Assembly: GCA_037447655.1 (NCBI GenBank)
Contig: JBBHKE010002277.1
Span: 215,571-279,570 of the forward strand
DNA from: Zygnema cylindricum
Taxonomy: Eukaryota > Streptophyta > Zygnematophyceae > Zygnematales > Zygnemataceae
Direction: 5' to 3'
Length of the DNA stretch: 64,000 nucleotides
Position numbers and translations under genes: made by a program. Positions within the stretch are counted from its first letter, which is position 1; each line of letters opens with the position of its first letter. A model generated the notes under the pieces. That model was not told where the DNA came from. It saw nothing but the letters and a program-made list of their open reading frames with translations, and made no database searches. Positions 3,671-56,072 of this stretch are shown one piece after another.

Positions 3671-3675
3671 AGAAT

Positions 3676-4322: not shown

Positions 4323-4324
4323 TT

Positions 4325-4340: not shown

Positions 4341-4363
4341 TTTCGGAGATAGAGAGAGAGCGC

Positions 4364-9049: not shown

Positions 9050-9070
9050 AGAGTTTGGCGATTCCGACAA

Positions 9071-9081
9071 TAAGAGGGGGG
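9071..9081 (+). other. Copia-P polypurine tract
   Basis: TAAGAGGGGGG lies one base upstream of the 3' LTR. Position and composition fit the RNase H-resistant primer for plus-strand DNA synthesis. Confidence 0.85.
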
Positions 9082-9082
9082 T

Positions 9083-9728: not shown

Positions 9729-9733
9729 AGAAT

Positions 9734-16310: not shown

Positions 16311-16571
16311 GTGGTCCCTTGCCATCTTCGGGGATTAGAAGACGAACCCACTTTCCACTTAACTTACTTTGCCGATCCTCCTTTCTTTTCATCAGCTTGC
16401 ACTCAGTCCTCCCAGCTTCACAACATATTGGTGTGCAATCAGTGTGGTCAGTGTTGGCATTCAACCTGTCTCCCCTCTTTTTGGGAGCCACACCCTCTAC
16501 CCTCCAGCACCTGGTTTTATGGGAACTGCGAACGGAGCGGGCAATTGTTTTTATATCTTAGTCACGGTTGA
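16311..16571 (+). pseudogene. Gypsy A C-terminal PHD-like zinc finger
   Basis: After the junction CHLRGLEDEPTFHLTYF, Cys/His residues in order are C (SSAC), C-x2-C, W-H, C, W...C: SAC-x13-CNQC-GQCW-H-STC, then WFYGNC (16398-16532). Copy B has the full C4-H-C3 set (38198-38343); here the first Cys and the Cys of W-x-C are replaced (FFSSAC, WFYGNC). PHD fingers read histone H3 tails. At the C-terminus of integrase it would be well placed to direct insertion. Ends TGA 16569-16571, just before the purine tract. Confidence 0.65.
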
Positions 16572-16573
16572 CT

Positions 16574-16585
16574 AAGAGGGGGGGA
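16574..16585 (+). other. Gypsy A polypurine tract
   Basis: TAAGAGGGGGGG follows the last stop at the same place as TAAGAGGGGGGG of copy B (38385-38396). Marks the start of the 3' LTR. Confidence 0.8.
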
Positions 16586-17895: not shown

Positions 17896-19113
17896 TATAT
17901 ATATGTACATGTTAGTGCATTTTGTCAAGCTTGGACGCTTCACAAGCACCCTTTCATTTCTTCCAAGGATTTCCGGACCTTTTTCTTTTACCTTGTACAA
18001 TCACCGGAGTACGGAGGAAAGGAGTGCTCTCAGCTGGACGAATCTTTATATTTACCAAACTGAGCGGAACACACTTTACGTCACGCCTAACAGAGGCCGA
18101 ACAACAAAGTTATTTCGTTTCAAAGATGACCAGTCTGTTTCCTGTGACTCGTTTTCACCTCCTGCGGTGGGGTGGTACATTGTGGAACGCCACGTAACTT
18201 TTTGGCTAGTCTTCTAGATTTTGCTATTAGTTGTCCGTAGGATGTCAGTTCAGGTCCACCAGACAGGCAAAGCATTTATTACTTAGAGTCAAAGATTAGG
18301 CGTTTCACGTCGATTCAGAACTTTGTTACTCCTAAGTGTCGGATAGAAGTACATGTGGTTTCCTCTTGCAGAAAATGGAAACCTAAATTTTAGCTCTAAG
18401 TGTAGTACAGCCTGTTTTGTCTTAGGTCCGTACGATAAAAATTTCTGGCCGCTGATTTGCTCTAGGTATTGCTTTGACTTTGGCACTTGTAGTAGGACAA
18501 ATCTTGCTCGTATAAGGCACTTGGGGCCGAAGGAGACAGGTCGCTTTTTCAGTACTGTCTCCTGAGAAAACCTCAGAAAATACAATCACTCTTTCTCTTG
18601 GAGAACTGTTGCATTGTGTCGTGAACTCTATTGCCATCTTTGTTTTGGATCGTCTTTTGTGGAAACCGTAGCTCGGTTCGGTGGTTGGCACTATCCTCTC
18701 TTTGGGCGGTTTGGATTTTCGATGTTTGAAACTTAGAAGAGTCAGTACTGATCCGTGCGGCGGAACCAAAGGTTGAGGGAGAATTATATCACTCTTCGGG
18801 GCAATTGGGAGAGGTTTCCCTTTCTAATTTGTCTCTTTGTTGCACTCCGGGGTATGTGTGCTCGCTTTACCATTTTCATTGATTTATATATTTATTTCTC
18901 TTTTCTGGGGCAAGGTGATATTGTTGAATCTGAAAAAGCCAATATTTATTATTTCTGTATTTCTGCGTAGAAGTCATTTGCACACTATTTGGGGTCGTTC
19001 TTGGTTTCTGTCCGGAGTTATTGCGGGTCAAATTGGAAGACTCGCATTCCCTTCCCATCCTTTAGGTAGTATTCAGGGGTGTAGCATTTATTTGGCCTCA
19101 GGCGGAAAAAGCA
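17896..19113 (+). repeat. Gypsy LTR (copy B side, 5' truncated)
   Basis: Starts mid-LTR (TTGTCAAGCTTGGACGCTTC) and runs to GGCGGAAAAAGCA at 19113; matches 38660-39860. With the preceding LTR it forms a head-to-tail pair, as left by recombination between LTRs or adjacent insertions. Copy B internal sequence follows without a recognisable primer-binding site. Confidence 0.75.
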
Positions 19114-20805
19114 CTATACTGAAAAAGCACCCTGTCTCTTTAGGTTAAAGAGGATAGGCGCTTAGGGTAGAGTACTTCTATAAAAATGGATTAGGTCTTC
19201 TGTTTCGGCCAGCTATGGGAGGAGGAGAAGTTCAGGAGAAGGATCTTCCGGGGTTCAGATCGGAAGAGCAGGAGAGGCAGGAAGTAGTGGCCCGAGAGGA
19301 AGAGTTACAGGTGCCCGAGGAAGCACCCCCCTTTAGCTCGCCTTTACACATAGAGCGGTTTCTTAAGGGAGAGATGCCTTTGGAGGTTGCAGTCGAAACT
19401 CCTCTAGAGCAGCCAGAGGGGCCCTCTCCTCCACCTCCACCTGTCTTTTCTCTGGAGAATTTTCCAACATTGTCCGAGGGTGCAATAGTTTGGGCAACGG
19501 AGAGGGCGGAGAGGCCTCCATTATCTCCTAAATCACGTAGGAAGGGCTTGGCACATAACGAGGTGGTCCCCGGTCACCCTCTTGAAGTAGGATGACATAC
19601 GAGATCTAAGGCTCCTATAGCAGAGATGTTTATGGATCCCGAAATGATGGCGGATCCTAATAGGCCCGGTCGCAAAGACATCTTAGCCCTTCATAATCTG
19701 CACGAGTTTAAGGTTAAGAACGAGCTGGTACAGTGGGTACGTAGGTCAGACCGAGCCGGGATAGTACGCCCAATGGGAGGGGTAGTGGAGATACTAAGTA
19801 GTTCTTCAGAGAGTGGCTCTTCAACTTCTGTCCCAGAACAACCGGGAAGGCCTTCAACTTCTCACCGGGAACCTACCCAATCTCAAGACACTGCGACCAG
19901 TGGACCATCTATAGGTAGGGCAACCTCACGGGCTGGGGTCGGAGAAGGAATCAGGAAGCGGGGGCTATCGGAGTCCAAGAGAGTGAACCGGTTCAATCAC
20001 CGAGACAACAAGGGCCGATTTGCGCCGCGACATAAAAAGAAGTCGTTCTTCCCTTCCGCCTCAGTCTCTCCTAGCACCCTGACCCCCTCAGCGCGGATTT
20101 TGCGACCATCTTAATGGTTGTGGCATTCGAGACCTATAGACCCCGAAGCACCTGGCTTGGGGATTGCGGATCTCTCGGGTGTGGTGAGCAGCACGTAGAA
20201 GCTGGTTGATTTTCTGCCATCGCAGAGTCAGGCTACAGTGGGGGCCGGACCCGTCACGGTAGACTAGGAGGCTCAGGAAGAGGAACGAAAGAAGGCTCTT
20301 GAACAAGAACTGCTCCTCATCCAAGAGGCTAGGCGAAGAGCAGGAGGGACACTGAGTGGATAGGTCGATCTCCCTCGAAGAACAGGTCCCTCTGGGGGAG
20401 TACAACTTCAAGGCCAAGCGACTCATCCTGCCACACAAACTACGGAGGCTCAACCAGGACCTAGTCAAGGATATCCTCTTTATCCGGAAGGGGGAGAAAC
20501 AACAAGGCCTAACGAAAAGGGGATGGGTCCAGATCTATTGGGTAATTTGGCAGATGTGTCCACTAATCTTCCTACCCTTGTCTCGATGGCGGGGACTTCC
20601 ACTGTGGAGGCCGTGGTGCAACTTCAACCCGACCAAAAATTACACATTTCTCTCGGATTATCCACCCCTCCACCATCACCACCTCATACATCCTCTTCTT
20701 CTCCATCCGTTTCTCCCGCTGCAGCCGTTCGTGGGTCGCCGGGTCCACCTGTTTTGTCTTACAAATACGACGTTCCGACCTACTCTCCTCCTCACTGACA
20801 ATCTC
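19114..20805 (+). mobile_element. Gypsy copy B, 5' internal part
   Basis: Leader plus N-terminal polyprotein. It stops at ATCTC (20801-20805); the same ATCTC starts the second part at 30447, and copy A homology is continuous across the two. Parts 19114-20805 and 30447-38396 are therefore one element split by Copia-H1. The leader 19114-19214 shows no PBS that I can identify. Confidence 0.9.
19215..20798 (+). pseudogene. Gypsy B N-terminal (pre-gag) polyprotein region
   Basis: Start chosen at the first ATG after the LTR (MGGGEVQEKD, 19215). It is in frame to 20114 apart from TGA 19593-19595 (probably CGA). Acidic/Pro-rich first half (EEAPPFSSPL, PSPPPPPVFSLENFP), then DPNRPGRKDILALHNLHEFK, homologous to copy A at 530-600, and a basic patch RHKKKSFFPS. 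Later segments with stops carry GIADLSGVV, EAQEEERKKALEQ and TPPPSPPHTSS. The stops TAG 20265 and TGA 20796 are at the same positions as 1208 and 1805 in copy A. No enzymatic domain recognised. Confidence 0.65.
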
Positions 20806-22532: not shown

Positions 22533-23510
22533 TAGTACAAATAGTGTCGAGCGTGCTTGGGGACCGTGAGGTTCCAGTAAGATGTCCTATGAGGTGTGCA
22601 TGAGAAATATGCCATCCACCCCAAATGCTGATGATTCCCCGGACCCGTGACCATGCCCTTCTCTGTCTCCCCCCGGAAGGGATATACTGAGGTAATAATG
22701 AGGAATTCAGTGAAAAAAAAAAGTACCCCGTACCCCTTCTTAGTTTGTGCTTATCCACTAGAAGCCTACAAAACGCTACTCGCCTGACCACTCTCCAAAG
22801 AATAGAAAGGAAATGATAATCGACCGATCTGACGCACCAGAACTCCGGACATAAACCAAAGATGACAACAAAAGTACGAGAATAACTCCCACGCTGAAAT
22901 ATAGAAAGAATAAAAATCGGCTCTTTTAGATACAACAATATCACCTTGCCCCAGATAATGGAAATAAAGATATAAGTCAATAATAACGGTGAAGCGAGCG
23001 AACATACCCCGGAGTGCAACAATAACAAAAATTAGAAGAAGGAAACTCTCCCAATGGCCCCAAAGACAGGTATGAGTCTCCCTCACCCCTCGCTTCCGCC
23101 GTATGAATCCGACAAGACTATTCTAAGTTTCAAACAACGAAAATCCAAACCACCCAAATAGATGATAGTGCCAACCAGCCACCTAATCTATGGTCTCCAC
23201 AAAAGACAATCCAAAACAAATATGGCAATAGAGTCAAAGACGCAATGCAACAGTTTCTCCAACAAAAAGGTTGATTCAATTCTCTAGGGGTTTTCTCAGG
23301 AGACAGTACTGAAAAAGCAACTTGTCTTCTTCGGCCCCAAGTGTCTTATACAAAAAAAGTCTGTCCTATTGCATCTACCAAAGTCAAAGCAATGCTCAAA
23401 GCCAATCAGCGGCTAACAATTGTTATCGTACGGACACAAGACAAACCAGGCTATACTACACTCAGGGCAAAAAGTTAGGCGAATGGCTCCGACTGAAGTG
23501 ACAGCCAAAG
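22533..23510 (-). repeat. Gypsy LTR fragment in inverse orientation
   Basis: The reverse complement follows 18380-18900 and 39100-39800 closely (TTGCACTCCGGGGTATGT, GGCAAGGTGATATTGTT, AGTACTGTCTCCTGAGAAAA). Past the LTR's 3' end it runs into the LTR's 5' sequence (AAGAAGGGGTACGGGGTAC, CATTTGGGGTGGAT), repeating the LTR-LTR junction seen at 39860. ORFs within it are not genes. Confidence 0.8.
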
Positions 23511-30451: not shown

Positions 30452-32030
30452 TTTCTTCCAGCGTAGGAACTCCTTCTTGAGAGACCTCTAGGAGGCGAAC
30501 CAGGGAACAGACACATTTTGGACAAAGCCCTGTGTTGTCTTCTTCCCCATCGCCCCCTATTCCTCAAAGACCTCTTGTGATCAAACCTCGATTTCCCATT
30601 CTTTCAGTGGCGGAAGTTCTTAGGGGAGAACAAGTCTCTACTGGGTATAGAGGAGCAGATGTTCAGACATCTTTCCCCAAATTGATACTTTCATCTTTTC
30701 CCAGAGGCAAACCAGCAAGAAATATAGGCCTTTCTTCTAGATCTTCTGTAGCGGGAACTTCGGCAGCAAGGGAAGGAACCTTTTCTCACCGCGCGGCTCT
30801 TTCGACCGAAGAAGAAGGCGGCCCCGAGATTGGAGATGCAAATCCAGGGGCCATTTCACTGGTTCAGTTTGTCAACCCACGAAACAAGAATCTCCCCAAT
30901 TCACCCACCTTGTGGAGGAGGAAAGAATAGGAGACATCAAAATCTTCACGGGAGATAGCTCAAGGATCGCCTTTTCTGATTTTGAACTGCAATGGAAATC
31001 TTTCACGCAGTCTAAGATAAATAAATACAAGGGAGGGGCCATCCGGGGGGATTTTAAGACCACACTCTTTCCTATGATGGTGAACTATCTAGTTGGAGGA
31101 GCTTTGGCCGACTATAAGGAACGTCAACCCGCTTTGATGGCTCCTAACATCAAGATCTCAGATCCGGCACTTGACGTCGAAGCCCTTGACGCAGCCGCTG
31201 ACTTAGCTGCTGCCGCAACCATCCCTGTGACTGCCACTCTCACCATGGACATGAAACTGCAGGCTCAAGGGAGATCATATGTTAATCACCTGCAGGCAGT
31301 GCAGGTCGTTGAGTTTGCTACCCAGATGGTGGCCAAGCCATGTCCTTGCACCGCTCTTCTGGACGCTTGGAGACGATTTTATACAGAAAGAAATGAAACT
31401 GCAATCAAGGAATTCACGGAATTCAGGTGTTTGAAGAATGAGACGCCGCAAACGCAGTTTAATCGCCTCTCAACCCCATGTCAAAAGACCAAGTTGTCTA
31501 CAATTGACACCCCAGCCATGGCCACAAAATATTACGTTGCTGTTTGGAATTCATTTGTACCCACGGGACAAGCAACTCTTGAGAATTAGAGTGCCAGTCA
31601 GGCCATCCACGACAGGAATCCCACGGCACAAGAAATTTCATTGGCTGCCATGAAGTTATATGATCATTTTGTCAACAGCGAGGCTAGAGAAAAGGTTGTT
31701 ACCAACAAAGCGCGAGCCAACTTCGCAGGTTTCATAGGGGAATCCTCTCTTAACCAGGAGGAACAGGTAGAACTTCAAGCTTTAAGGAAGCTTAAAAGAA
31801 AACAGCAAGCCGAGGCCCGACCCGAACCTGTAATGGGGGCGGATGAAAAGGTTTACCTGTACAACTGCTTGAACTGCAACCAAACCGGTCATAGGTGGAA
31901 ACGATGCCCCAGGAAGCTCAACTTCGAACTTACTATCAAGCAAAAGGAGTTTGAAAAAGAACTGGCAGAAAGGACGAGGAAACAGCAGGAACGCAGACAT
32001 GGAGGAGGAGGAGGGGACCGCACGCCGTAA
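30452..32030 (+). pseudogene. gag: Gypsy B gag with CCHC knuckle
   Basis: 30532-30930 continues the N-terminal region (VLRGEQVSTGYRGADV). After a shift, 30912-31586 is open: GDIKIFTGDSS, FSDFELQWKSFTQSK, TLFPMMVNYLVGGALADYKE and EFTEFRCLKNETPQTQFNRL, a Gypsy capsid. TAG 31587-31589 interrupts; in the same frame, MKLYDHFVNSEAREK, a coiled basic/acidic helix and the knuckle CLNCNQTGHRWKRC (about 31866-31907) lead to TAA at 32028. Apart from that stop, gag is complete. Confidence 0.85.
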
Positions 32031-33249
32031 CAAAATAAATTATAAACCTACTCCCTGATCTGAAACTCCAAAAATGTCTCAAGTTCAGCTGAGACAAATC
32101 AGACTCCCTAAATTTGATGAAGCTCAGATCTCAAATGAATTAAGAGGGAAGTACACCACCGAAGGGTCAAAATGTGAAGCTTATGAGTTCATGGGCCACA
32201 AGGATGGACAATGTTACCGGAAGAATGGGGTCCCAAAAGAAATGATGCAATATGCTTTGTTCACAGGCAAAGGAGAAACCGCCGTTAATCCTCTGCCATT
32301 GCAACTTTTGTATCCCTAGGGACTTCGATCTCCTAAGGAACCGGGACCAAGCAACATGACGCCGGAACAAATCATCCAGCAACAAAGCACTCAATTGGCT
32401 GCCATGGCAGCAGAATTGGCCTCCCTCCGTTTGGGGTCAAAAACCCGCACACCTCCACCTTCGACGCACGCTGAGAAGCTATATCAACAAAAACAAGAAC
32501 TGCTACGAAAGCTAGCGAAGCTGTAACAGCAAGCCATGGCAGGTGGAGATGATGATGACCTCATGGGTTGGGATATGGAGCCTCCGAAGGCTCATCATGC
32601 TCGATTATTTCTGTCGAAGCCTGGAACGTCGGAGTCCGGGACAATCGCAGGCAACTACGATCTACCACTGCTACAACAAGAAAGGACAAACAGCCAATGG
32701 ATTAGGGAGACCACAGTCGCAAAACCACCGGTCCTTTATCCTTCACACCGCGGGTTGTGATATTCAAAAGCGACATAAGGCTAGGCCTAAAACCAACACA
32801 TCCTCCTCCTCCGGTTCTAAAGAAACTTCCTCCTGGTTTCGAAAAATACAAGAAATCCGAGTCGAGAAAATAAGTCTCAAACACTGAAACAGATCATGAA
32901 TGGTTCAATCGATACTTGGCAGAAAGACCAACCGCAGATCCACTAATTACACCTCCAACGGGAAACACTGACGCAGAGGATGAAGAAGCACGGGGCGGGG
33001 GGGAAAGGAGAAATCGGAAGATGAGGACTCACCCATTTCATCGCCAAAAGCTCACCCTCCTTCTTCCAAACCGACAGTTATGTTAGTGCGACACCTGACG
33101 CATTGACCCACGTCAAAACACTAGCTTCCTCCCACAATTTGTCCGGAGAAATCCTCATTCAGGCACTAGGGGAGGAGATTCACACCAAGAGGGAAAGGGT
33201 AGCATTGGGAGAACCGCCCAAGACAGTCTTCATGTCAGCAGAACCGAAA
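32031..33249 (+). pseudogene. Gypsy B second knuckle and linker
   Basis: 32074-32319: KFDEAQISNELRGKYTTEG then CEAYEFMGHKDGQCYRK, where the second Cys of the knuckle is Tyr (Cys in copy A). The linker has MTPEQIIQQQSTQLAAMAAE (possible coiled coil, about 32355-32415), GGDDDDLMGWDMEPPKAHHA (about 32550-32605) and RHLT...LASSHNLSGEILIQALG near 33085-33170. Frames shift at least twice. No enzyme recognised. Confidence 0.65.
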
Positions 33250-34017
33250 ACTTCTATAGCAGATTGAGATTATAAAACCCTATCGGTAGCCCTTATTCTG
33301 AACAGGACAGGTAATTTTAAACTTAATGGATACGGCGGGTATCAAGATGCCATGGTTATACTGGAGCCCTTCCTAATCTCATTACCACTTCAGCATTGCA
33401 GAAAATGCCCGAGGAAATCAGGCCAAAAATCAGTCCTAGTGAAATATGCCTGACTAAAGTCAGCAGTGGGAGCCAACTAGTATATGGCATCATTAAAGCA
33501 ATGGAAATTGAATTCGCGAACGACGCAGGTCAACACGTTCAAATCCAGCTCCCCTTCCTGGTGGTGGAAGGGAAGAAATTTAAAATTATGTTGGGTATGG
33601 CCACCTCGACAAGGTTGAACATGGAGCTGAGTATATGGAAAGAACAAAAAACCGTTTCAGACCCGGAAAATCCTGAGGGCACCAAGGGAGTGGTCCACTT
33701 GGATTTATGGAACCAGGGGAAAATAACTCTTCTTGTGGCTGGATGCTATCTGGTGTATTCGGCATCCACCCCTTCAGAGCTGTTCGAGGATTCCACCGAT
33801 ATCGCAAATTCAATCTAGCAATTCCCCATCTCCAAGCGGTGGGAAAGGGAGTATGAACGCAGATTCGTAAGATGGCCACACTCCGGCGGGGAGTGGACAA
33901 GGGCTTCGCAACTATATCATACGGAACAGCAAAGCTCATCTGGCCCGAACTCCCAACGGTGCCTAATCTAGGGTAAGACTTCAACCGGCAAGTGGTGTCA
34001 CTGGATATCCGCCCTTA
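33250..34017 (+). pseudogene. Gypsy B protease region and spacer
   Basis: RTGNFKLNGYGGYQDAMV precedes the active-site loop, which is frameshifted here so the Asp-x-Gly is not readable. 33396-33818 then gives MPEEIRPKISPSEICLT, MEIEFANDAGQHVQIQLPFL and FKIMLGMATSTRLN, matching copy A at 11655-12000. TAG at about 33816. The spacer holds QFPISKRWE and NRQVVSLD, the same lead-in to the methyltransferase as in copy A. Confidence 0.7.
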
Positions 34018-34998
34018 GGACTCCGAATTCTCTCGCTATTTTCCGACATTAGTTTCGACCTAGAAGCCGTCCTGATAGCGGGATACCAAGTAGAAACGTA
34101 TTCGGCAGTCAAAATTGACCCAGACGCCCATGTAGTTAGAGAGCATCGACTACAACATCTGCACCAACTTTATCCACAACAACTCCCGGTGTCCGCCATG
34201 TCTAACTCTCACCACAGACTTCCCCAAAATGTAAACCACATCACGAATTCACATTTGGAGAAGCTTGGAACGGTAGACTTGGTGATAGCTGGCTGGCCTT
34301 GCTAGGGGTATTCGTTAGCAGGAGAGGGCAAAGGACACCAGGATGTCCGTGGCAGAACATTTTTTCAAATGACTCGATTGATAACAGGGTTACACGAACG
34401 CCAGGATACACTAGTGGGGTACGTCTTGAGAAATGTTCACACGACAGATGATAAGAGGAAACAGGTAGTCAACAGCTGGAACCAAGTAACCAAGGTTCTG
34501 GGGACTCCCATAGTATTTGATGCAGCTCAATTCGGGTCTCGAGCCCACCAAGTTAGAGCTTATTGGACCAACCTGGTCCCACTTCCTGTCCTGCAACAGC
34601 TGTTGAACACCGAGGTTCCGGATCCCAACATCACAGTTCAACAAATTCTCGAACGAGGGCGAATGGCCACCCCAGTGACCACAGCCGACCGAGCACCCTT
34701 CTTCGGTAGCAATAAATGCAGAAATCCACGGAGGGCCTTACTAACCCTGATATCTTTCCCTAACAGCCATGCTTACAAGAAGGGCGCACAAGGGATGATT
34801 TTTGACAGGAAGACCGCTACGTGGACAGCACCAAATATTGAGGAACTGGAACAAGCGATGGGATTTCGACCAGCAACCACAGCAACACCAGGAATATCAG
34901 CCTCGAGAAGGTGCAGTTTAATCGGGAAAAGTATAGATTTGAATGCAGTTTCATGGATGATGCGACATTCTTTGGCCTTCTCCAACCTCTATCCGTAG
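34018..34998 (+). pseudogene. Gypsy B C5-DNA methyltransferase domain (DNMT3-like), one stop
   Basis: 327 codons in one frame with a single stop. Motif I GLRILSLFS (34018-34044), then AVLIAGYQVETYSAVKIDPD. Motif IV AGWPC-stop-GYS: catalytic Pro-Cys intact (Cys TGC 34300-34302), the next codon CAG now TAG (34303-34305). GRTFFQMTRLI resembles the GRLFFEFYRLL segment of DNMT3. Motif VI YVLRNV (Glu of ENV changed to Arg, 34429-34431). FDAAQFGSRAHQVRAYWTN (about 34513-34569), EELEQAMGF and SLIGKSIDLNAV complete the fold. It would methylate cytosine in DNA, possibly the element's own cDNA. Copy A retains ENV and this copy retains PC. Confidence 0.92.
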
Positions 34999-35399
34999 AA
35001 TCACGATCAACATACCTTCAAGCTCCACTGTTGTTGGCCAGGCAAGCAACTCTACAGTTTGAGGGGGGGAGAAAGACAAGAAGGGAAAAATTCAGCAAAT
35101 TCTATTCAGGGGGATCAATGCACACAGAAGTTTCCTCAGTGGGGGGAACGCAGGTTCAGAACAGGACAGCTTAGAGGAAGTTCGCAGCAGTAGCGTTTTA
35201 GCAGCCGAGCTTGGGATGGATCCACAGGTAGAACTGGAATTCGACATCTCTCTTTGGGGTTGGACACCGAAAGCATTGGCGGCAGTGGAACCCAGGAAGA
35301 TGGACTGGACTTTGGGGGAACAGCTAGACCCATAGCAGAAGGCCCAGCTCTCCAAGCTGTTAGAGGAAAACGGGCATGTGTTCTCCTGGTCTGACACAC
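34999..35399 (+). other. Gypsy B spacer between methyltransferase and RT
   Basis: Homologous to 13198-13606. Contains LGMDPQVELEFDISLWG-like peptide (about 35208-35260) and the pre-RT LSKLLEENGHVFSW (about 35349-35390), a typical Gypsy lead-in to RT. Frameshifted; no catalytic domain seen. Confidence 0.55.
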
Positions 35400-36290
35400 A
35401 TGTAGGGATTTATAAGGGGACCCTTTTTTGCATTGACCTGACGGACGAGACGGCGACTGTTTGGCAGAAAACAGTACCCTCTCAGCTTTAACGAGAAGGA
35501 GTTCATCACAGCAAAGGTCCAGACTTTGGTGGATGCAAGGTTGGTGCAGGAAAGTACAGAGCTACATGGGTTTGCCTCTCCCACAGTGCTCCCACCAAAG
35601 AAAGATTCATCTAGAAAAACTGTAGATTTTCAGATGTGTGGGGACTATCGGATGCTAAACGCGGCCACGGTTTCTGACCGCTATCCCCTGTCCTCCCCGG
35701 AAGAAATCTTCGACTCTCTTGCCGAGGCCAACATTTACTCTACGTTGGATATGAAGAATGGATTCCACCAGATTGCAATGGAGCCAAAGCACTGAGAGAG
35801 GACCGCTTTTTGGGCAGGATCCAGGTTGTATGAATGGCTGTACATGCCATTTGGTCTCAAAAATGCACCTGCCACATTTCAAAGGGTCATGGACGAGGCT
35901 CTTTGAAGAATCGATTGCGCACGGTGTTACATCGACGATGTGATCATTTTCTCCAAAACATTCCAGGAACACTTGGAGCATATACAGATCGTTCTCCAAG
36001 CTCTTCAAGTAGCGGGCTTGAAGTGTCACCCGAGGAAGGGCATTTTTGGAGTGCAGAAAATCGTCTATCAGGGTCATGAGGTGATTCGAGGGACAATGGG
36101 TCCCCACATCGTTAAGGTGGCAGCCCTTGACGCCCTTCCACCCTCGCAGGACACTTCTGCTCTTCGCACCTTCTTTGGGCTGGCCAACTACTACCGGAGG
36201 TTTATCCCCAAATTCAATACCACGCCAAGCCATTGAATCTATTACTAAAAAAAGACCAGGAGTGGCAGTGGGCGGCAGAACAACAGACTG
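35400..36290 (+). pseudogene. pol: Gypsy B reverse transcriptase
   Basis: FNEKEFITAKVQTLVDARLV, GFASPTVLPPKKDSS, FQMCGDYRMLNAATVSDRYP, IYSTLDMKNGFHQIAMEPKH (catalytic Asp), [15 protein letters not shown] and YIDD at 35928-35939 (YVDD in copy A). GLANYYRRFIPKF ends it. Stops at 35793 and about 35905; frameshift near 36230. Confidence 0.92.
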
Positions 36291-37087
36291 CTTTTTAATT
36301 CTTGAAGGATTCCCTAAAGCAGCACCCCGTGCTTCGGATGCCGGATCACCAACGCCCCTTTCTCCTTTACACTGATTAGAGTAGGTTCGGATTGGGAGCC
36401 GTGTTGGCTCAAGTGGACGATGCAGGAGCTTAGTATGTGGTGGCTTACGCCAGCCAGAGTAATAACACAGCGGAGGGGAACTACGGCAGTTACCATGGGG
36501 GGCTCTTGGCGGCCGTTTGGGCAATTCAGCATTTCAGACCATATTTATACGAGATCCACTTCACCCTCATTAGTGACCATCAGCCTCTGAAATGGATCAT
36601 GGAAAATAGTAAATTTACCGGCAAACTCGCTAGGTGGGTTTTGATCTTGCAGGAATACGATTTCAGCATCATTCACCGGGTAGGAGAGATTCACGGGAAT
36701 GCCGACGGACTCAACCGAAATCCTGACCCCTCCACATTGGATTCTACTGGGGCGCGGCATGATGTGGATCCGGAGATTAGTTTGGGACTTATACGAGCCT
36801 CCTCGGCTTTAATCTGGCTTCCCCAAGCTGAGGGGGAAATATCCACCTTTGCGGTCGACGTTGAAGGACTTGCACCAATAGGAGCCGGACGGAGAGATAT
36901 ATGGATGACTCCGACACTCTACAATCCATCCAGCGGGGATCTCCACTTCCACACTTGGATGGTGCTCATTTATCCCGTGTACAGACCCAGATGGGGGCAT
37001 ATGAATGGGACCAGGGAATTCTCCTGCGGAAATGGGCTGACGGGACGAGGAAAGTGGTTCCTCCTCCCGCAAATTGAGAAACTCTAA
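36291..37087 (+). pseudogene. pol: Gypsy B RNase H and connector
   Basis: RPFLLYTD (Asp), FGLGAVLAQVDDAGA, stop, then open 36437-37087: VVAYASQSNN, YHGGLLAAVWAIQHFRPYLY (the Glu of YHGELLA is Gly here), LISDHQPLKWIMENSKFTGK, LQEYDFSIIHRVGEIHGNAD. The loss of the catalytic Glu would inactivate RNase H. The tail EISLGLIRASSALIWLP leads into integrase. Confidence 0.87.
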
Positions 37088-38160
37088 TTTCCCGCCTCCA
37101 TCAGCAATGCAGGCACTTCGAGCAGAAACGGACTACTTCTTTAGTCAAAAGATCTTATTGGTGGCACAGGTTGCGAGCCCAAGTCAATACGATAGTGCAG
37201 ACTTGCTCTTCATGTGATCGAGTTAAGGCAGCTTTTGACAAAAAGGGCGGAACTGAGCTTCACTCTCTCCCTATCCGAGGGATGCTTTATCAATGGCCGT
37301 TGGATCTTTTGGGACCTTTTCCAAGCAGCACGCGGGGGAACTGCTTCATACTGATCATGATTGAACACTTTTCAAAATGGATAGAGTTGGTGGTTTTGCC
37401 CCGGAAGGAATCTAAATCAATTGCAGAAGCCTTTTTGCAAAGAGTGTTGTCACATTTTGGGGCGCCAGCAGAGGTTCTAACCGACCAGGGATCATAATTT
37501 GCTAGAGAATTTACTAACCTTCTGTAAAATTGCCACATTGACCACAGGCTGACTAGCCAAGACTACCCACAGGCCGACGGTTTGGCCGAAAGGTGCGTAC
37601 AGATAGTGAAGCGGTCACTACGAAAATATGTCGTGGAAGAAGATGTGGGAGAATGGGACAGGAGAGTGCCTTGGATAGCAATAGGATACCGGTTCAGCAT
37701 GCAGGCCTCTCTCCATTCTTATTGCCCTTACTTTATTCTTTTTGGCCGACATCCCATCCTTCCTGGAGCTGCATCGGCTTAGGCAGTTATACTCCCGGAA
37801 ATGGACAATTGGGGGACGCTGGAAAAGCTGATTGCCGACAGAGCTAAGGTATTTCAGCGGGAAACGCCTCTGGCTATGGGCAATTTACAGGCTGCTCAGC
37901 ACAAGGATCAGCTTTGGTATCCCCAACACAGGAGCCGCGATTACGTCCCTCGGCAACGGCGGTTCATGCCCGGGGAATTCGTGTATCGCATGCAACAGAA
38001 GAAGGACACTTTGGACATTTCGGCCGGACGGGTGATTCATAGAGTAGTATAGGTTTCTAACAAAGGAGTTCTGACCTAAGAAAAGAAGGATGCCCGCAAA
38101 ATTAAGGAAAACCATATTAATGTTGCCCCTTGCCATCTACGAGGGCTGGAAGACGAACCC
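37088..38160 (+). pseudogene. pol: Gypsy B integrase
   Basis: Zinc region RLHQQCRHFE and TCSSCDRVKA (CC pair intact); core PLDLLGPFPSS (Asp), EVLTDQGS (Asp, then stop TAA at about 37495), and ADGLAERCVQIVKRSL (Glu). FILFGRHPILPGAAS, then MPGEFVYRMQQKKDTLDIS and IKENHINVAPCHLRGLEDEP. Stops at about 37495, 37527, 37780, 38050 and 38078. The end merges directly into the PHD-like finger. Confidence 0.9.
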
Positions 38161-38355
38161 ACTTTTCACCTCACTTACTTTCTAGATCCACCCCCATGCT
38201 CCTTAGCCTGCAACGGGTCTTATTTTCCCAGCTTCCTATCCATGTGTGATCACTGTCATCAAGGGTGGCATGACGTCTGCCAACCATCCACTTGGGAGGC
38301 CCGCTCTCAAATCGCAAATCCGTGGTTCTGTGGGGACTGCGAATTTGGCGGCTAA
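38161..38355 (+). pseudogene. Gypsy B C-terminal PHD-like zinc finger
   Basis: Cys/His spacing C-x3-C-x13-C-x2-C-x4-H-x2-C-x20-C-x2-C (38198-38343), with W before His (GWHDVC) and WFCGDC at the end: the C4-H-C3 pattern and aromatic positions of a PHD finger. C-x3-C in place of C-x2-C at the first pair is slightly atypical. One stop (TAG, 38183-38185) precedes it. Natural end TAA 38353-38355. PHD fingers usually bind histone H3 tails; at this place other Gypsy lineages have a chromodomain. Zinc-finger type is inferred from spacing alone. Confidence 0.72.
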
Positions 38356-38384
38356 TTTATCTTAACCTCTTAGTTAAGCGAGAC

Positions 38385-38396
38385 TAAGAGGGGGGG
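38385..38396 (+). other. Gypsy B polypurine tract
   Basis: TAAGAGGGGGGG just before the 3' LTR start TGATTTTAGGG; same as in copy A. Confidence 0.85.
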
Positions 38397-39860
38397 TGAT
38401 TTTAGGGAAGGGGGGTCTGGGACACTTTTTCCTCTTCCACTTTCCCCCTCATTTCTACCCATGCGCATTTTAAAAAAGGAAGATACAAAACAGAGCATTA
38501 TCACTCATCCGGAAGGGAATCAACATTTGGGGTGGATTGCAAGTCTTCTATGCACACCTTCTCGGACCTCTCTCTCTCTCGAACCACCCGGTTTCCAGGA
38601 TCCCAATGCACTCTCCTTCTCACGGGGAAACTTTGTTTAATGTTGTTCTCGGCACGCTTGACATCTGTCAAGCTCGGACGCTTCACAAACACCCTTTCAT
38701 TTCTTCCAAGGATTTCCGGACCCTTTTTTTTTACTCGGTACAATCACCAATGTACGGAGGAAAGTAGTGCTCCCAGCCGGACAAATCTTTATATTTACCA
38801 AACTGAGCGGAACACACTTTACGTCACGCCTAAAGGAGGCTAGACAACGGAGTTATTTTGTTTCAAAGATAACCAGTCTGCTACCTATGACTCGTTTTCA
38901 CCTACTCCAGTGGGGGGGTACATTGTGGAACGCCACGTAACTTTTGGGCTAGTCTTCTAGATTTTGTTGTTAGCTGTCCGTAGAATGTTAGTTCAGGTCC
39001 ACCAGACGGGCAAAGCATTTATTACTTAGAGTCAAAGATTAGGCGTTTTACGTCGATTCAGAACTTTTTTAGTCCTAAGTGTCTGATAGAAGTACATGTG
39101 GTTTCCAGTCTCGCAGAAACTGGACGCTTAACTTTTAGCCCTAAGTGTAATACAGCCTGTTTTGTCTTAGGTGCGTACGATATTAATTTCTGGCCGCTGA
39201 TTGGCTCCATGTATTGCTTTGACTTTGGCACTTGCAGTAGGATAAATCTTGCTTGTATAAAGCACTTGGGGCCGATGGAGACAGGTTGCTTTTTTAGTAC
39301 TGTCTCTTGAGAAAACCTCAGAAAATACAATCAATCTTTATGTGGGAGAAGTGTTGCATTGTGTCGTGAACTTTATTGCCATCTTTGTTTTGGATTGTCT
39401 TTTGTGGAAACTGTAGCTCGGTTGGGTGGTTCGCACTATCCTCTATTTGGGCGATTTGGATTTTCGCTGTTTGAAACTTAGAAGAGTCTGTACGGATCCG
39501 TGCGGCGGAACCAAAGGGTGAGGGAGAATCATATCAGTCATCGGGGCAATTAGGAGGGGTTTCCTTTTCTAAGTTGTGTCTACGTTGCACTCCGGGGTAT
39601 GTGTGCTCGCTTTACCATTTTCATTGATTTATATCTTTATTTCTCTTTTTCGGGGGGCAAGGTGATATTGTTGAATCTGAAAAAGCCGATATTTATTATT
39701 TCTATATTTTTGCGTGGAAGTCATTTGCACACTATTTGGGGTCGTTTTTGGTTTCTACCCGGAGTTATTGCGGGTCAGATTGGAAGACTCGTATTCCCTT
39801 CCCATCCTTTGGGTAGTATTCAGGGGTGTTGCATTTATTGGGCCTCCGGCGAAAAAAACA
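38397..39860 (+). repeat. Gypsy B 3' LTR
   Basis: TGATTTTAGGGAAGG to GGCGAAAAAAACA, about 1.46 kb; from about 38660 it parallels 17896-19113. Compared with the next LTR it seems to lack a ~400 bp block between two GGCACGCT repeats (38656 region), as a deletion by short direct repeats would leave. Short ORFs inside are not genes. Confidence 0.82.
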
Positions 39861-40530
39861 TTATTTAGGGAAGGGGGGTGCGGGAAAAACTTTTTCCTCT
39901 TCCACTTTCTCCCTCATTTCCACCCATGCACATTTTAAAGAAGGAAGATACAAAACAGGGCATTATCACGCATCCAGAAGGGCATCAGCATTTGGGGTGG
40001 ATTCCAGGTCTTCTATGCACACATTCTCGAACCTCTCTCTCACGAACCACCCGGTTTGCAAGATCCCAATGCACTCTGCTTCTGATGGGGAAACTTCCTT
40101 CTATGTATTTCCCGGCACGCTCAGCAATTTGCGTCTTCGTCTGGAGTTCTCTTTGCTTTGGGGTGACCGTTCCGGAGTAAACTGAAACCCCCTGGATTTG
40201 GAAAGTGGGTTTTGAGGGAACACGTGCGATAGACTTCTCGTAGACAAAGCAAAATTGGCATATCAGCCGGATTACCGAGATCCACATCCCTTTCCCCGGC
40301 CAGGGGGGGAAAAGAACGGGGAGGAGATAACTTTCGCCTTCCCCGTGCGCTCATCCTTAATCCTTGTCAAAGCATCTCTCCTATTTTTCATGCATATCAA
40401 TGGGAGGGATGTGGGCAGTAGTGGGCATGATCATCATTTAGGGGAGCATTCGCATTCGGGGTTTATTTGCGAGACTCCAATACCTACGACTACGGGCTGT
40501 GGGCCCTTCCCTCACGTTAATTAGGCACGC
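39861..40530 (+). repeat. Second, partial Gypsy LTR joined head to tail
   Basis: TTATTTAGGGAAGGGGGG follows the preceding LTR with no spacer, repeating its first ~250 bp. It then carries the AATTGGCATATCAGCC block (40250 on) found at the start of 16586-17895. It stops at about 40530 (GGCACGCTCGACACG). An LTR-LTR junction like that of two-LTR circles. Confidence 0.75.
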
Positions 40531-44271: not shown

Positions 44272-45368
44272 GGTTATGGGCCCACCCTCTAGGGTGCCCA
44301 TTTTCAATTGAACGGGTAGGCCCACCCTCAATGGTGCCCATTTTCAATTGAACCGGGTTCATATACAGGGAAACTACGATGAGGGGTGCACTTTTTGAAA
44401 AACGGCTATGGGGCATTATGAGTGGTCGTGTGCGGCGGTCATCTGCAAAATTGGGGAATTTCACAAGGGTTTGGAAGAGCTCGATTCTGAAGATTATTTG
44501 TGGAGGCAGAGGTGACAGATGAAGTTGGAGAAAGAATCGTGTTGGACAAAGGGAAGGAGAAGGGGAAGGAGAAACTCACACCGATAGCTACTAGATCGGT
44601 ACCTGTAGTGGCTAATCACAAAACCAGGGCAAATAATACTGAAATCAGAGACTTTAACAACACAGTGGCAACTCATTTTATTCTCGGGCGTCACTTTTAT
44701 GTGGACAAGGGGGCGATCTGTGAGAGGCTCTTGTAAATATTTACAAGAGTGGTACGATTCACAAGCAGAAGCAGGTTGATCGGATCGTGGAAGCATATGT
44801 TTACAAAGGAGGAAAGATGCTTGATTTTTGCAATGACTTGTCTAGATTGTTTATGGAGTTGGAGAGTGCTCGAAAACAGGAGACAGAGAAAGAAAAGGTG
44901 AATACTTTGCTAATGAAACTACTAGATGATTATGAGAGCATCGTTAACAAGGTTCAAGATTGGCCAAGTCATCGATGGATTTGGTACTCCGTTGAAGGGA
45001 TGATTTTGGTTCGGGAAGCACAACTGAGATTCGGAGAGGAGGAAAGAGTAGTCAAGCCTTGGCTACTAGAAGTGATTAGAGGAATCAGGATTACAAGAAA
45101 CATTTTGGAAAATTTTGGAGGAGCGAGAGGAAATCAATCGGATGGATCCGGATCTAGGCCTCCAAAGCGACTCTTTCATTTTTGTAAGAACTTATGACAT
45201 TATATGGCAGAGTGCAATAAGTTGACGGAGATGAGACTTAAGGAAAGGCGGACCGGTAGATTAGCCAGCAGAAATAAAAAGGCACTTGTGGCAAATCAAG
45301 TAATAAGAGAGGATTCAGATGAAGATGATGGAGAATTTCTTCTCTACAAGGAATTGAAGGTGAAAACG
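44252..45368 (+). pseudogene. gag: Copia-H2b Gag remnant running into satellite
   Basis: ATG 44252-44254 lies in the LTR 20 bases before its end (MEVT), as in H1 and H3; a stop follows. Recognisable parts: 44500-44736 (GERIVLDKGKEKGKEKLTPI, DFNNTVATHFILGRH) and 44787-45197 (YVYKGGKMLDFCNDLSRLFM, NTLLMKLLDDYESIVNKVQ, GMILVREAQLRFGEE), with a damaged knuckle HFCKNL-stop-HYMAEC (about 45177-45218). It runs through LLYKELKVK and is cut at about 45368 by satellite. Nothing downstream of gag survives. Confidence 0.8.
44272..44286 (+). other. Primer-binding site, complement of tRNA-iMet anticodon arm
   Basis: GGTTATGGGCCCACC, 15/15 to the complement of the plant initiator tRNA-Met anticodon stem-loop; abuts the LTR end with no gap. 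Followed by a tandem copy of a ~38 bp block (CCCACCCTC...GCCCATTTTCAATTGAAC). Confidence 0.9.
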
Positions 45369-47744
45369 TTAATTATTAGGCTCACAAAAATAGTAAAAAA
45401 TAAACCCTCGACTATGTTTCCAACACAAATTTGTGTTTGCGTTAACAACAAAAATATTAACGAACAAAGTTTATTGTTGACGCAAATAAAAAGAGTTAAA
45501 AAAACCGCAAACCATGTTTCTATCACAAATTTGAGTTTGCCCTAGCAAAGATATTTCTAACAAACAACGTTTACTGTTCGGATTCACTATTCCATCACAA
45601 ATTTGAGTTGGCGCAAACAAAGATATTTGTAACAAACAATGTTTATTGTTCGCGCTCACAAAAAGAGGTAAAATAAATTGTGAACCATGTTTGTAACACA
45701 ACTTTTTATTTGCGCTAAAAAACAATAATGGTAACATCACTATAAATTGTTATTGCTCACAAAAATATTTCAAATAAACTCTCAACCATGGTCATAACTC
45801 AAATTTGTGTTTGCGCTAACAATAATTTCTTGTAAAGAACAACGTTTATTATTACGCTCACAAAAACAGTAAAACAAAACCCTAAAATATGTTTGCAACA
45901 CGAATTTGTGTTTTCGTTAACAACAAAAATATCAACGAACAAAATTTATTATTAATGCACACAAAGAGAAATAAAGAAAAGCCTTAACGATGTTTTTATC
46001 ACAAATTTGAGTTTGCGCTAACAAAGATATTTGTAACAAACAACTTTTTTTGTTCGCTGTCACAAAAAAACGGAAAATATTCTTTGAACCATGTTTGTAA
46101 CTCAGGTTTTTATTTGCGCTAACATCAATAATGGTAACATCACTATAAATTGTTATTGCTCACAAAAATAGTTCAAATAAACTCTCAACCATAGTCATAA
46201 CTCAAATTTGTGTTTGCACTAACAATAATTTCTTGTAACGATCAACGTTTATTATTACGCTCACAAAAACAGTAAAAAAAAACCGTAAAATATGTTGGCA
46301 ACACAAATTTGTGTTTGCATTAACAACAAAAATATTAACGAACAAAGTTTATTGTTAACGGACACAAAGAGAGTTAAGGAAAACCCTAAACCATGTTTCT
46401 ATCACAAATTTGAGTTTGCGCTAGCAAAGATATTTGTAACAAACAACGTTTATTGTTTGCGCTCAAAAAGAGGTAAAATATACTTTGAACCATGTTTGTA
46501 ACACAATTGTGTGTTTATGGAAAAAATAATATTGGGAACAAACACTTTATATTGTTATCACTCAAAAAAATAGTTCAAATAAACTCTCAACTATGTTTAT
46601 AATTCAAATTTGAGTTTGCGTTAACAATAATTTCGTGTAACAAACAACGTTTATTATTACGGTCACAAAAAACGTAAAAAAAAAATCCTAAAATATGTTT
46701 GCAACACAAATTTGTGTTTGCGTTAACGACAAAAATATTAACGAGCAAAATTTATTGTTAATGCCAACAAAGAGAATTAAAGAAAAGCCTTAAACCTGTT
46801 TCAATCACAAATTTGAGATTGCACTAACAAAGATATTTGTGACAAACAACGTTTATTATTCGCGCACAAAAAGAGGTAAAATTAACTGTGAAACCATGTT
46901 TGTTACACAACTTTTTGTTTGCCCTAACAACAATATTGGTAACAAACACTTCATATTGTTAGCGCTAACAAAAACAGTTCAAATAAACTCTCAACTATGT
47001 TTATAACTCAAATTTGTGTTTTGCGCTTACAATAATTTCTTGTAAAGAACAACGATTATTGTCACGCTCACAAAAACAGTAAAAAAAAACCTCCAACTAT
47101 GTTTGCAACACAAATATGTGTTTGCGTTAACAACAAAAATATTAACGAACAAAGATATTGGTAACACACAGAAAGAGGGTTAAACAATACCATAAACCAT
47201 ATTTCTATCACAAATTTGAGTTTGCGCTAACAAAGATATTTGTAACAAACAACGTTTATTGTTCGCGCTCAAAAAAAAAGGTAAAATAAACTCCGAACCA
47301 TGTTTCCAACACAACTGTGTGTTTAGGGTTATAACTATATTGGTAACAAACACTTTATATTGTTATCCCTCACAAAAATTATTCAAATAAACTCTCAACC
47401 ATGTTTCCAACTCAAATTTGTGTTTGCGCTAACAATAATTTCTTGCAACGAACAACGTTTATTATGACACTCACAGAAACAGTAAAAAAAAACCCTCGAC
47501 TAGGTTTGCATCACAAATTTGTGTTTGCGTTAACAACAAAAATATTAACAAACAAAGTTTATTTTTAACACATACAAAGAGAGTAAAAAAAAACCCTTAA
47601 CTATGTTTCTATCACAAATTTGAGTTTGCGCTAACAAGGATATTTGTAACAAACAATGTTTATTGTTCGCGCTCACAGAAATAGGTAAAATAAACTATGA
47701 ACCATGTTTGTAACACAACTTTTTGTTTGCGCTTACAACAATAT
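45369..47744 (+). repeat. Satellite array, left part, four-monomer higher-order repeat
   Basis: About 100 bp monomers of four types follow one another in fixed order: A (ATGTTTGCAACACAAATTTG), B (ATGTTTCTATCACAAATTTG), C (ATGTTTGTAACACAACTTTT), D (ATGTTTATAACTCAAATTTG). Type A starts near 45891, 46292, 46696, 47099 and 47502, a period of about 403 bp. The first unit has an extra partial B monomer. Each monomer ends with a variant of CTCACAAAAA and contains a GCG(C/T)TAACAA...TTGTTAGCGC dyad. Confidence 0.95.
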
Positions 47745-47987
47745 CAAAGTGGCGCATATTTCATCGTTTCGTACATTTTAAATCGGATCGCTTCGCAATC
47801 CGCCGTCTATTTTTTACTGTGTGTTCACACCACTCAATAAGTCATTTTCTTCACTTTTGTTTTATCCGTACGTTTGCTCCCCGAATCCGTGAATTCATTC
47901 GAACCTCCACATTAATAATATACGTATGAAATGTCACAAGCGTATAAAATGTCCCGTACGCACGAAACTAACTTTTCAAAAACAACA
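47745..47987 (-). repeat. Putative 3' LTR part of Copia-R
   Basis: On the minus strand CGGGGGAG then TGTTGTTTTTG looks like a purine tract followed by an LTR start at 47987. Two similar motifs (GGGGAGTGTTGAG at about 48358, GGGGTGTTGT at about 48503) occur further upstream, so which one is the real LTR start is unclear. Confidence 0.4.
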
Positions 47988-50480: not shown

Positions 50481-50488
50481 AGACAACA

Positions 50489-53400
50489 AATATTGGTAAC
50501 AAACACTTTAATTGTAAGCGCTTACAAAAATAGTTCAAATCAACTCTCGACCATGTTTATAACTCAAATTTGTGTTTGCGCTAACAATAATTGCTTGTCA
50601 CGAACAACATTTATTATTACGATCGCAAAAACAGTAAAAAAACCCTAAACTATGTTTGCAACCCAAATTTGTTTTTGTGTTAACAACAAAAATATTAACG
50701 AACAAAGTTTATTGATAACGCACACAAAGAGATTAAAAAAAAACCTTGAACCATGTTTCTATTACAAATTTGAATTTGCGCTAACAAAGATATTTGCAAC
50801 AAGCAACGTTTTTTGTTTGTGCTCAATAAGAGGTAATATGAACTTCAAACCATGATAATAACACAACTTTGTGTTTGCGCTAACAACAATATTGGTAACA
50901 AACACTTTCAAAGGTGGCCTTAGCCGGAGCGGATTACACAAAAATAGTTCAAAATAACTCTCAACCATGTTAATCACTCAAATTCCTGTTTGCGCTAACA
51001 ATAATTTCTTCTAACGAACAACGTTTATTATTACGCTCACAAATACAGTAAAAAAATAACCCTAAACTTTGTTTCCAACACAAATTTGTATTTGCGTTAT
51101 CAACAAAAATATTAATGAACAAAGTTTATTGTTAACACACACAAAAAGAGTTAAATAATACTCTAAACCAAGTTTCTATCACAAATTTGAGTTTGTGCTA
51201 ACAAAGATATTTGTAACAAACATCGTTTATTTTCGCGCTCACAAAACGAGGTAAAATAAACTCCGAACCATGTTTGTAACAAAAGTGTGTCTTTGCGGTA
51301 ATAACAATATTGGTAACAAACACTTTAAATTATTATCGCTCACAAAAAAAGTTAAAATTAACTCTCAACCATGTTTATAACTCATATTTATGTTTGGGCT
51401 AACAATAATTTCTTGTAAGGAACAACATTTATTATTACGCTCACAAAAACAGTAAAAATAACCCTAAACTATGTTTGCAATACAAATTTGTGCTTGCGTT
51501 CACAACAAAAACGAACAAAGTTTATTGTTAACGCACACAAAGAGAGATAAAAAAAACAATAAACCATATTTCTATCATAAATTTGAGTTTGCGCTAACAA
51601 AAATATTTGTAACAAACAGCATTTATTGTTCACGCTCACAAAAACATTACTTTGTGTTTGCGTTAACAATATTGGTAACAACCACTTTATATTGTTTCCT
51701 CTCACAAAAATAAGTCAAATAAACTCTCAACCATGTTTATGCCTCAAATTTGTGTTTGCGCTTACAAAAATTTATTGTAACATACAACTTTTATTATTTT
51801 GCTCACAAAAAAAGTAAAAAAAAACTTAATCTATGTTTGCAACACAAATTTGTGCTTGCGATAACAACAAAATTATTAACGAACAAAGTTTATTCTTAAC
51901 GAACACAAAGAGAGTTAAGAAAAACCCTAAACCATGTTTCTATCACTAATTTTTGTTTGCGTTAACAACAAAAATATTAACGAACAAAGTTTATTGTTAA
52001 CGTAAACAAAGAGACTTAAAAAAAACCTTAAACCATGTTTTTATCACAAATTTGAGGTTGCGTTAACAAAGATATTTGTAACAAACAACGTTTATTGTTC
52101 GCGCTCACAAAAAAAGGTAAAATAAACTCTGAACCATGTTTGTAACACATCTTTTTGTTTGCGCAAACAACAATATTGATAACCAACACTTTATAATGTT
52201 AGGGCTCACAAAAATAGTTCAAATATACTCTCAACTAAGTTTATAACTCAAATTTAAGTTGCGCTAACAATAATTTTTTGTAACAAACAATGTTTATTAT
52301 TACGCTCACAAAAATAGTAAAAAAAAACCCTCAATTATTTTTGCAACAAAAATTTGTGTTTACGTTTACAACAAAAAAAATTACGAACAATGTTTATTGT
52401 TAACGCACAAAAAGAGAGTTAAGAAAGACCCTAAACCATGTTTCTATCACCCATTTGAGTTTGCGCTTACAAAGATATTTGTAACAAACAATATTCATTT
52501 TTTGCGCTCACAAAAAGAGGTAAAATAAACTCCGAACCATGTTTGTAACACAACTTTTTGTTTGGCTAACAACAATATTGGTAACAAACTCTTTACATTG
52601 TTAGCGCTTACAAAAATAGTTCAAATAAACTCTCAACCATGTTTATAACTAAAATTTGAATTTACGCTAACAATAATTTCTTGTAACGAACAACATTTAC
52701 TATTACGCTCTCAAAAACAGTAAAAAAAAACCCTCAACTATATTTGCAACACAAATTTGTGTATGCGTTTAGAACAATATTATTAACGAACAAAGTTTAT
52801 TGTTAACGCACACAAAGAGAGTTAATAAAAACCCTAAACCATGTTTCTATCTCAAATTTGAGTTTGTGTGAACAAAGATATTTGTAACAAACAACGTTTA
52901 TTTTTCCCCCTCAAAAAGAGGTAAAATAAACTTCGAACCATGTTTGTAACACAACTTTGTGTCTGCGCTAACAACAATATTGGTAACAAACAGTTTATAT
53001 TGTTAGCGCTCACAAAAATAGTTCAAATAAACTCTCAAAAATGTTTATAACTCAAATTTGTGTTTGCGCTAACAATAATTTCTTCTTACGAACACATTTA
53101 TTATTACGCTCACAAAAACAGTAAATAAAAACTATAAACTATGTTTGCAACACAAATTTGAGTTTGGCTAACAAAGATATTTGTAACAAACAACGATTAT
53201 TAATCGCGCTCACAAAAAGAGGTAAAATAAACTCTAAACCATGTTTGTAACAAAACTTTTTGTTTGCGCTAACAACAAAAATGGAAACAAACACTTTATA
53301 TTGTAAGCGCTTACATAAATAGTTCAAATAAACTCTCAACCATATTTATAAATCAAATTTGTCTTTGCGCTTACAATATTTTTTTGTTACGGACAAAGTT

Positions 53401-56050: not shown

Positions 56051-56072
56051 AAATGTCTGGTACATTTGTTTC

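Follow-up and report, generated by a model that had tools for sequence, protein, structure and literature searches.

Ty3/Gypsy copies with a captured DNMT3-like methyltransferase in Zygnema cylindricum, and their relatives in bryophytes and other hosts

A Ty3/Gypsy retrotransposon bearing a DNA methyltransferase was reported in 2018 from Klebsormidium nitens and designated KnitGypsy-Dnmt3; its copies are intronless and under purifying selection, and their Pol polyprotein includes a Dnmt3-type enzyme with its motifs in the canonical order (PMC5890265). The same paper describes SymbioDIRS-Dnmt3 and SymbioLINE-Dnmt of Symbiodinium, which are likewise retrotransposons with a captured C5 methyltransferase but are DIRS and LINE elements, not Gypsy, and are treated there as separate acquisitions; de novo CG methylation in yeast was shown there for the enzymes of SymbioDIRS-Dnmt3. 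A paper of 2025 repeats the Klebsormidium finding but names the element a long terminal repeat (LTR) Copia (PMC12344493), an orchid Gypsy element likewise has an added nucleic-acid-methylation domain, in that case an N6-methyladenosine RNA demethylase and not a DNA methyltransferase (PMC9289625), and, according to an opinion article of 2019, land plants, such as tracheophytes, lack transposons with a DNA methyltransferase (PMC6338049). The subject of the present analysis is a stretch of 64,000 nucleotides from Zygnema cylindricum (assembly GCA_037447655.1, contig JBBHKE010002277.1, positions 215,571 to 279,570 of the forward strand), hereafter the window, which contains two inactivated Ty3/Gypsy copies, both on the + strand (element 1 from 2170, element 2 at 30454-39861), each with a DNMT3-like domain. 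The original prediction, made by a model from the letters of the window, had placed retrotransposon C5 methyltransferases in charophytes and dinoflagellates, which is right (PMC5890265).

Compared by description only, the window family differs from KnitGypsy-Dnmt3 in having bryophyte relatives, two positions of the enzyme and a PHD finger, which is distinct in L002 and faint in the window copies; KnitGypsy-Dnmt3 was described from one alga and with DIRS-like repeats (PMC5890265), whereas the window elements have a probable 3' LTR and a polypurine tract, their ends being incomplete. The term PHD does not occur in the main text of PMC5890265, figures and supplements apart, no DNMT-bearing Gypsy element is named in the portions of PMC6453930 and PMC10538959 that were available, and the later literature, covered as titles and abstract openings with few subscription journals, yielded neither a further DNMT-bearing Gypsy nor a PHD finger joined to a Gypsy integrase. 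New here are the bryophyte relatives, the two enzyme positions, an intact relative (L002) with a leaky-stop motif, and a PHD finger C-terminal to the integrase. Since hosts use cytosine methylation as a weapon against mobile elements, it is puzzling that one of these should carry a methylating enzyme, and with relatives on chromosome-sized moss and liverwort contigs the puzzle extends to land plants. Three of its parts can be tested separately, namely the PHD finger, the two positions and the leaky-stop motif; the tests concern the target of methylation, the chromatin that is met and the amount of enzyme.

A profile of the relatives (alignment A3, window row removed) was run on the six-frame translation of the window and scored above 5 bits at exactly two places, 12247-13191 in element 1 (copy 1, 294.1 bits) and 34015-34950 in element 2 (copy 2, 360.0 bits); shuffling the window 20 times gave 2.6 bits at most. 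With its internal stop written as X, the whole domain of copy 2 matched the C5-methyltransferase family PF00145 of Pfam at 33.7 bits (cut-off 22), the check that had been proposed with the original prediction, and DNMT3A in the PDB at E 1.2e-11. The 230-amino-acid open stretch of copy 2 alone was weak (PDB E 0.006), which speaks against the reality of the domain, and neither this stretch nor the 137-amino-acid stretch of copy 1, each taken alone, had a Pfam hit; the strong scores need the whole domain. The domain is nearer to DNMT3 than to DRM, DNMT2 or the bacterial enzymes, and its motif order is canonical and unpermuted (I, IV, VI, VIII, GFxxG and an end of the LLGQAMDLN type), unlike that of DRM, as had been predicted. 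The structure predicted for P0001 (60-row alignment, pLDDT 95; a 7-row model of pLDDT 50 was not used) has a fold that aligns end to end with DNMT3. The central claim of the original prediction, that a DNMT3-like enzyme has been captured by a Ty3/Gypsy element, is supported by these profile, Pfam, PDB and fold matches, and such an enzyme is almost certainly what the window elements carry.

Motif I (LRILSLFS) and the segment RAHxVxAYWTN were found in both copies, as had been claimed, and the claimed motif ENV in copy 1 only, copy 2 having Arg for Glu (RNV). The contexts given for motif IV, AGWLC in copy 1 and AGWPC in copy 2, are in place; copy 1 is without the Pro of the motif while retaining the Cys and the Glu of ENV, and copy 2 retains Pro-Cys, after which comes an in-frame TAG (34303); among the 57 other rows with a letter at that position, 56 have Gln. 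In-frame stops number five within the domain of copy 1, with a sixth just past it, and one within that of copy 2, with another behind it. Both window copies are dead. Because each motif is whole in one of the two, their common ancestor probably had intact PC and ENV motifs; across the relatives' alignment, window row included, the catalytic Cys of motif IV is present in 56/58 and the Glu of motif VI in 53/59 rows with a letter. The TAG at a conserved Gln, together with copia frames split by single in-frame stops, raised the question of a non-standard genetic code in which stops are read as a residue. This was rejected, as the residues opposite the 51 stops in the tblastn alignments (21 TAG, 20 TAA and 10 TGA) are mixed, Trp, Arg, Gln, Lys and Leu among them, which is ordinary decay.

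Between the two copies of the DNMT domain, over 302 aligned codons with stop codons skipped, nonsynonymous (pN) and synonymous (pS) differences per site were 0.27 and 0.72, with a ratio of 0.14 (bootstrap interval 0.07-0.23; 235 of the 300 resamples gave a finite value and were used); this and the following ratios are rough, dS being near saturation, and pS is still far above pN. The other regions gave 0.13 (protease region), 0.09 (reverse transcriptase, RT), 0.07 (RNase H), 0.17 (integrase), 0.17 (integrase C-terminus, interval 0.15-0.60) and 0.20 (PHD region, 0.09-0.42). Differences by codon position were 0.31, 0.25 and 0.59 in the DNMT domain, an excess at the third position that is less clear in the PHD region (0.29, 0.29 and 0.48) and is absent from two noncoding repeat pairs behind Pol (0.35, 0.34, 0.29 and 0.09, 0.11, 0.08). 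These patterns are firm evidence that purifying selection once acted on the methyltransferase, and the enzyme was very probably at work in the family's past. The domain had been called a family trait, which is borne out by the relatives that carry it and by the low pN.

The two elements are clearly diverged, with a DNA identity of 65% over the part from gag to DNMT and of 73% over the rest of Pol from RT onwards, and in both the domain precedes RT at the same location, as the original prediction stated. Its further statement that the domain lies in frame between protease and RT is correct as to place only: copy 1 has DNMT in the frame of the protease region and RT in another, and in copy 2 each of the three has its own frame. 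The intact relative L002 (CADCWO010000201.1, 9285 bases, ends overlapping by 127) has two open reading frames (ORFs). ORF1 (1162 amino acids from the contig start) contains zinc knuckles, identified by eye, together with an aspartyl protease (20.5 bits, below the cut-off of 24.3) and a DNMT (PF00145, 45.9 bits), and ORF2 (1047 amino acids) contains RT, RNase H, integrase and a PHD finger (PF00628, 39.9 bits), with no chromodomain among its Pfam hits. The order RT, RNase H, integrase, which is of Ty3/Gypsy type, is common to L002 and both window elements. The L002 DNMT is 34% and 38% identical to those of the window, and RT, RNase H and integrase are 44-63% identical; the alignment passes through the PHD finger in copy 1 (30%) and reaches into it in copy 2, so that this order, with the PHD finger, is probably also that of the window family. 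As read from these alignments, the window lineage had the order protease-DNMT-RT with a probable PHD finger behind the integrase, as in the intact L002. The L002 contig is filed under a Synechococcales cyanobacterium metagenome-assembled genome (MAG); being a Gypsy retrotransposon, it is probably eukaryotic sequence that was wrongly binned.

ORF1 and ORF2 of L002 share a reading frame with one TAG between them (at 3489), so that the Gag-protease frame has the DNMT as its C-terminal portion and RT begins past the in-frame UAG. The predicted location inside Pol needs refining accordingly: in P0006 and P0013 DNMT reads straight into RT without a stop, and in five others it is next to RNase H or the integrase. 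The stop has the context TAG CAATCA, the sole such motif on that contig strand, and UAG followed by CARYYA is the leaky-stop type of plant viruses (PMC3542737); by its motif the L002 stop is a candidate leaky stop, a site of putative readthrough. It is hardly a sequencing error, since P0034, which comes from a different source, has the same final residues, NALSATK. The same nine bases, TAG CAATCA, also occur in frame in a young copia element of the window, at 7487, between its integrase frame (5930-7489) and its RT frame (7490-9049). A relative of 62% identity, P0121 (517 amino acids), starts at about the same place, which suggests that the copia stop may be programmed; three more in-frame stops lie upstream in this element, at 4949, 5321 and 5927.

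Relatives numbered 7 proteins in an initial search and 195 in a profile search; the best 120 of the latter are considered here. All 120 match the P0001 DNMT by phmmer, 102 of them over the DNMT alone and 18 also over a flanking piece, namely protease-plus-linker before it (10; the piece comprises the protease and the linker behind, and several of these proteins match the linker only), RT after it (2), RNase H before it (2), integrase after it (3) or PHD after it (1). Relatives from land plants are P0029 of the liverwort Calypogeia fissa (contig of 25 Mb) and P0054 and P0082 of the moss Sphagnum troendelagicum (contigs of 23 and 15 Mb), the last with the protease motif LLDSGA upstream of DNMT; the moss and liverwort matches contradict, for bryophytes, the 2019 statement on land plants (PMC6338049). 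P0041 is assigned to a bacterial MAG and is probably misbinned. In viral and prokaryote collections 1, 76 and 55 loci (132 in total) were compared with the L002 ORFs at E 1e-5: only L002 itself matched ORF2, 86 matched ORF1 alone and 45 neither, and the remaining loci, judged collectively, we take to be prokaryotic or phage methyltransferases.

The enzyme was found at two positions, protease-DNMT-RT and RNaseH-DNMT-integrase. The second is that of P0057, P0072, P0075, P0076 and P0107, in which DNMT is next to RNase H or integrase, and these five form one clade with P0087, P0090 and P0110 (ultrafast bootstrap 100; FastTree 0.997). Family members without the domain ahead of RT had been named as evidence against the original prediction, and this clade is in part such a case. 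Its integrases are 44-47% and its RNase H domains 52-59% identical to those of L002, which argues for one broad Gypsy lineage with the enzyme at two places; the two positions may have arisen by relocation or by a second capture. The bryophyte proteins fall inside an 11-member clade (support 100) and the two window copies pair at 0.96 (FastTree); the outgroup is a single DNMT3A fragment on a long branch, and the placement of the window pair is not informative. In P0090 (EukProt, 392 amino acids) DNMT is followed directly by a PHD finger (43.7 bits) without visible retroelement domains, and this protein is either a host gene derived from the element or a fragment of a gene model.

The PHD fingers of L002 and P0090 are above the PF00628 cut-off of 24 bits. 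Among the best 60 of 96 matches, the L002 finger is closest to those of CHD4, Cph2, PHF12, UHRF1, MLL3, KMT2D, KDM5, PHF21A and AIRE. Several fingers of the CHD4/UHRF1/KDM5/PHF21A/AIRE type bind histone H3 unmodified at K4 or R2. Chromoviruses are Gypsy elements with a histone-reading chromodomain C-terminal to the integrase, the place at which the present elements have a PHD finger instead. In animal DNMT3 the catalytic domain works with ADD, a PHD-like reader of histone H3; reader and enzyme are there in one host protein, whereas here the reader stands behind the integrase of a mobile element. That the finger serves as an integration tether or target reader is a proposal for which we see even chances.

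The following course of events is proposed for the living family. The enzyme would be produced together with Gag and protease; in L002 it would be made at the Gag level, and the leaky UAG would yield a longer product with RT, integrase and PHD. The enzyme would then be packaged in the virus-like particle and methylate the element cDNA before or at integration, while the PHD finger on the integrase side would contact histone H3 tails at the target. New copies would then already be methylated on arrival, in chromatin to match, and could pass for silent DNA native to the host. Everything beyond a conserved enzyme in a polyprotein is inference. That the enzyme acts on the element's own DNA is, in our judgement, evenly poised, and we give neither greater nor lesser credence than doubt to the reading as a whole, in which the window holds two old dead insertions of a family whose enzyme methylates its own cDNA and whose PHD finger meets the target histones. 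A broader formulation, offered tentatively and leaning towards doubt, is that in a Gypsy lineage found in mosses, a liverwort and other hosts a DNMT3 acts as writer and a PHD finger of the unmodified-H3 type as reader, with the enzyme made at the Gag level by way of a leaky stop, methylating the element's own DNA in chromatin selected by the reader, and placed at two points of the polyprotein; if true, the pair would give a mobile element the same working principle as animal DNMT3 with its ADD reader.

Several observations weigh against methylation of the element's own cDNA guided by a PHD finger. Both window copies are dead, and their PHD remnants, at a homologous place 3' of the integrase in each (16395-16529 in element 1, 38206-38340 in element 2), score below the cut-off, at 21.7 and 17.0 bits. 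A leaky stop of CARYYA type is absent from the DNMT-RT junctions of both window copies, which are decayed, and the single frame from DNMT into RT in P0006 and P0013 means that the stop is not general. Elements without a methyltransferase, such as copia here, thrive in the same genome, and the Klebsormidium Gypsy enzyme gave no methylation in yeast, a result that its authors call inconclusive (PMC5890265).

Among the alternatives, self-restraint, by which the enzyme would methylate integrated copies or their neighbourhood and so bring on early silencing that spares host and element, was raised as a possibility by the authors of PMC5890265 and fits the conservation of the domain; hosts, however, silence elements unaided and action on integrated copies is an assumption, and we think it unlikely. 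An RNA target, suggested for SymbioLINE-Dnmt (PMC5890265) and in keeping with a fold shared with RNA enzymes of DNMT2 type, or an action on host chromatin at large, for example by disturbing host silencing, in place of the element's DNA, is held to be rather improbable. The broken state of both window copies would suit a passive passenger, captured once and not yet lost, but with pN far below pS, an excess of third-position differences, catalytic residues kept and a wide set of relatives this is very hard to sustain. Defence of the host or the element against DNA viruses has been published as speculation only, on methylases in retrotransposon polyproteins (PMC6338049), and is given scant credence. 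Chance resemblance of motifs in decayed sequence, which the poor scores of the open stretches might suggest, is discounted almost entirely in view of the shuffle control, the whole-domain Pfam and PDB scores and the relatives of the same order.

The two elements are preserved in the window as follows. The gag part of element 1 is in two pieces, 2170-3022, with 67.6% DNA identity to 30856-31703 of element 2, and 10066-11607, which also matches element 2 and has weak CCHC-like zinc knuckles (seen by eye, below the Pfam cut-off). An inverted gag/protease fragment (3023-3674 and 9732-10040) lies inside element 1 and is split by the young copia. The gag region of element 2, identified by DNA matches to element 1, is at 30454-33326 with its left end cut beside a copia LTR piece. 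The protease regions, at 11608-12168 (element 1, active site not intact) and 33327-33968 (element 2), were assigned from position and relatives and are 57% identical in protein; neither matched a Pfam family. RT and RNase H of element 1 (13560-14852, in a frame unlike that of DNMT) were located by tblastn with L002 ORF2 (45%) and RVT_1 (65 bits, 13653-14207), and its integrase is at 14851-16164 (45%), followed by the PHD remnant, over which L002 ORF2 aligned at 16050-16538. In element 2, RT and RNase H lie in two frames at 35466-36775 (tblastn 45% and 63%; RVT_1 30.2 bits at 35907-36233; RNase H 78.6 bits) and the integrase at 36904-38205 (tblastn over 36904-38280, 44%; Integrase_H2C2 46.6 bits, rve 37.6 bits).

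Polypurine tracts are inferred by inspection at 16574-16584 (element 1) and 38386-38396 (element 2), and probable 3' LTRs directly behind them at 16585-17922 and 38397-39861, from repeats and from their start behind the tract; no 5' partner of either was found in the window, where the left ends of both elements are cut or rearranged. The probable Gypsy LTR is also present as partial copies at 17923-19117 and, on the minus strand, 22747-23481, the former being 91% identical to the LTR of element 2 and about 69% to the adjoining LTR of element 1. The stretches 451-1807 and 19572-20798 were considered as an LTR pair and rejected, as they match at only 57%; they are probably gag-like, perhaps from a third element. 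Scans of the window with Rfam and ARAGORN gave no matches.

The young copia occupies 3675-9728, with LTRs 97.5% identical and a 5-bp duplication AGAAT (by eye). Its coding part (4286-9049) has 12 CAG and 15 CTG sites, 0.22 and 0.33 of first-order expectation, CCG and CGG not being depleted, and one possible reading is avoidance of CHG methylation. The CAG/CTG depletion is strong in the young copia and in a satellite and is not seen in the Gypsy copies. The satellite forms arrays at 45365-47745 and 50483-56053, with a unit of about 101 bases and a G+C content of 0.29 (50500-56000), and is possibly a centromere-type repeat.
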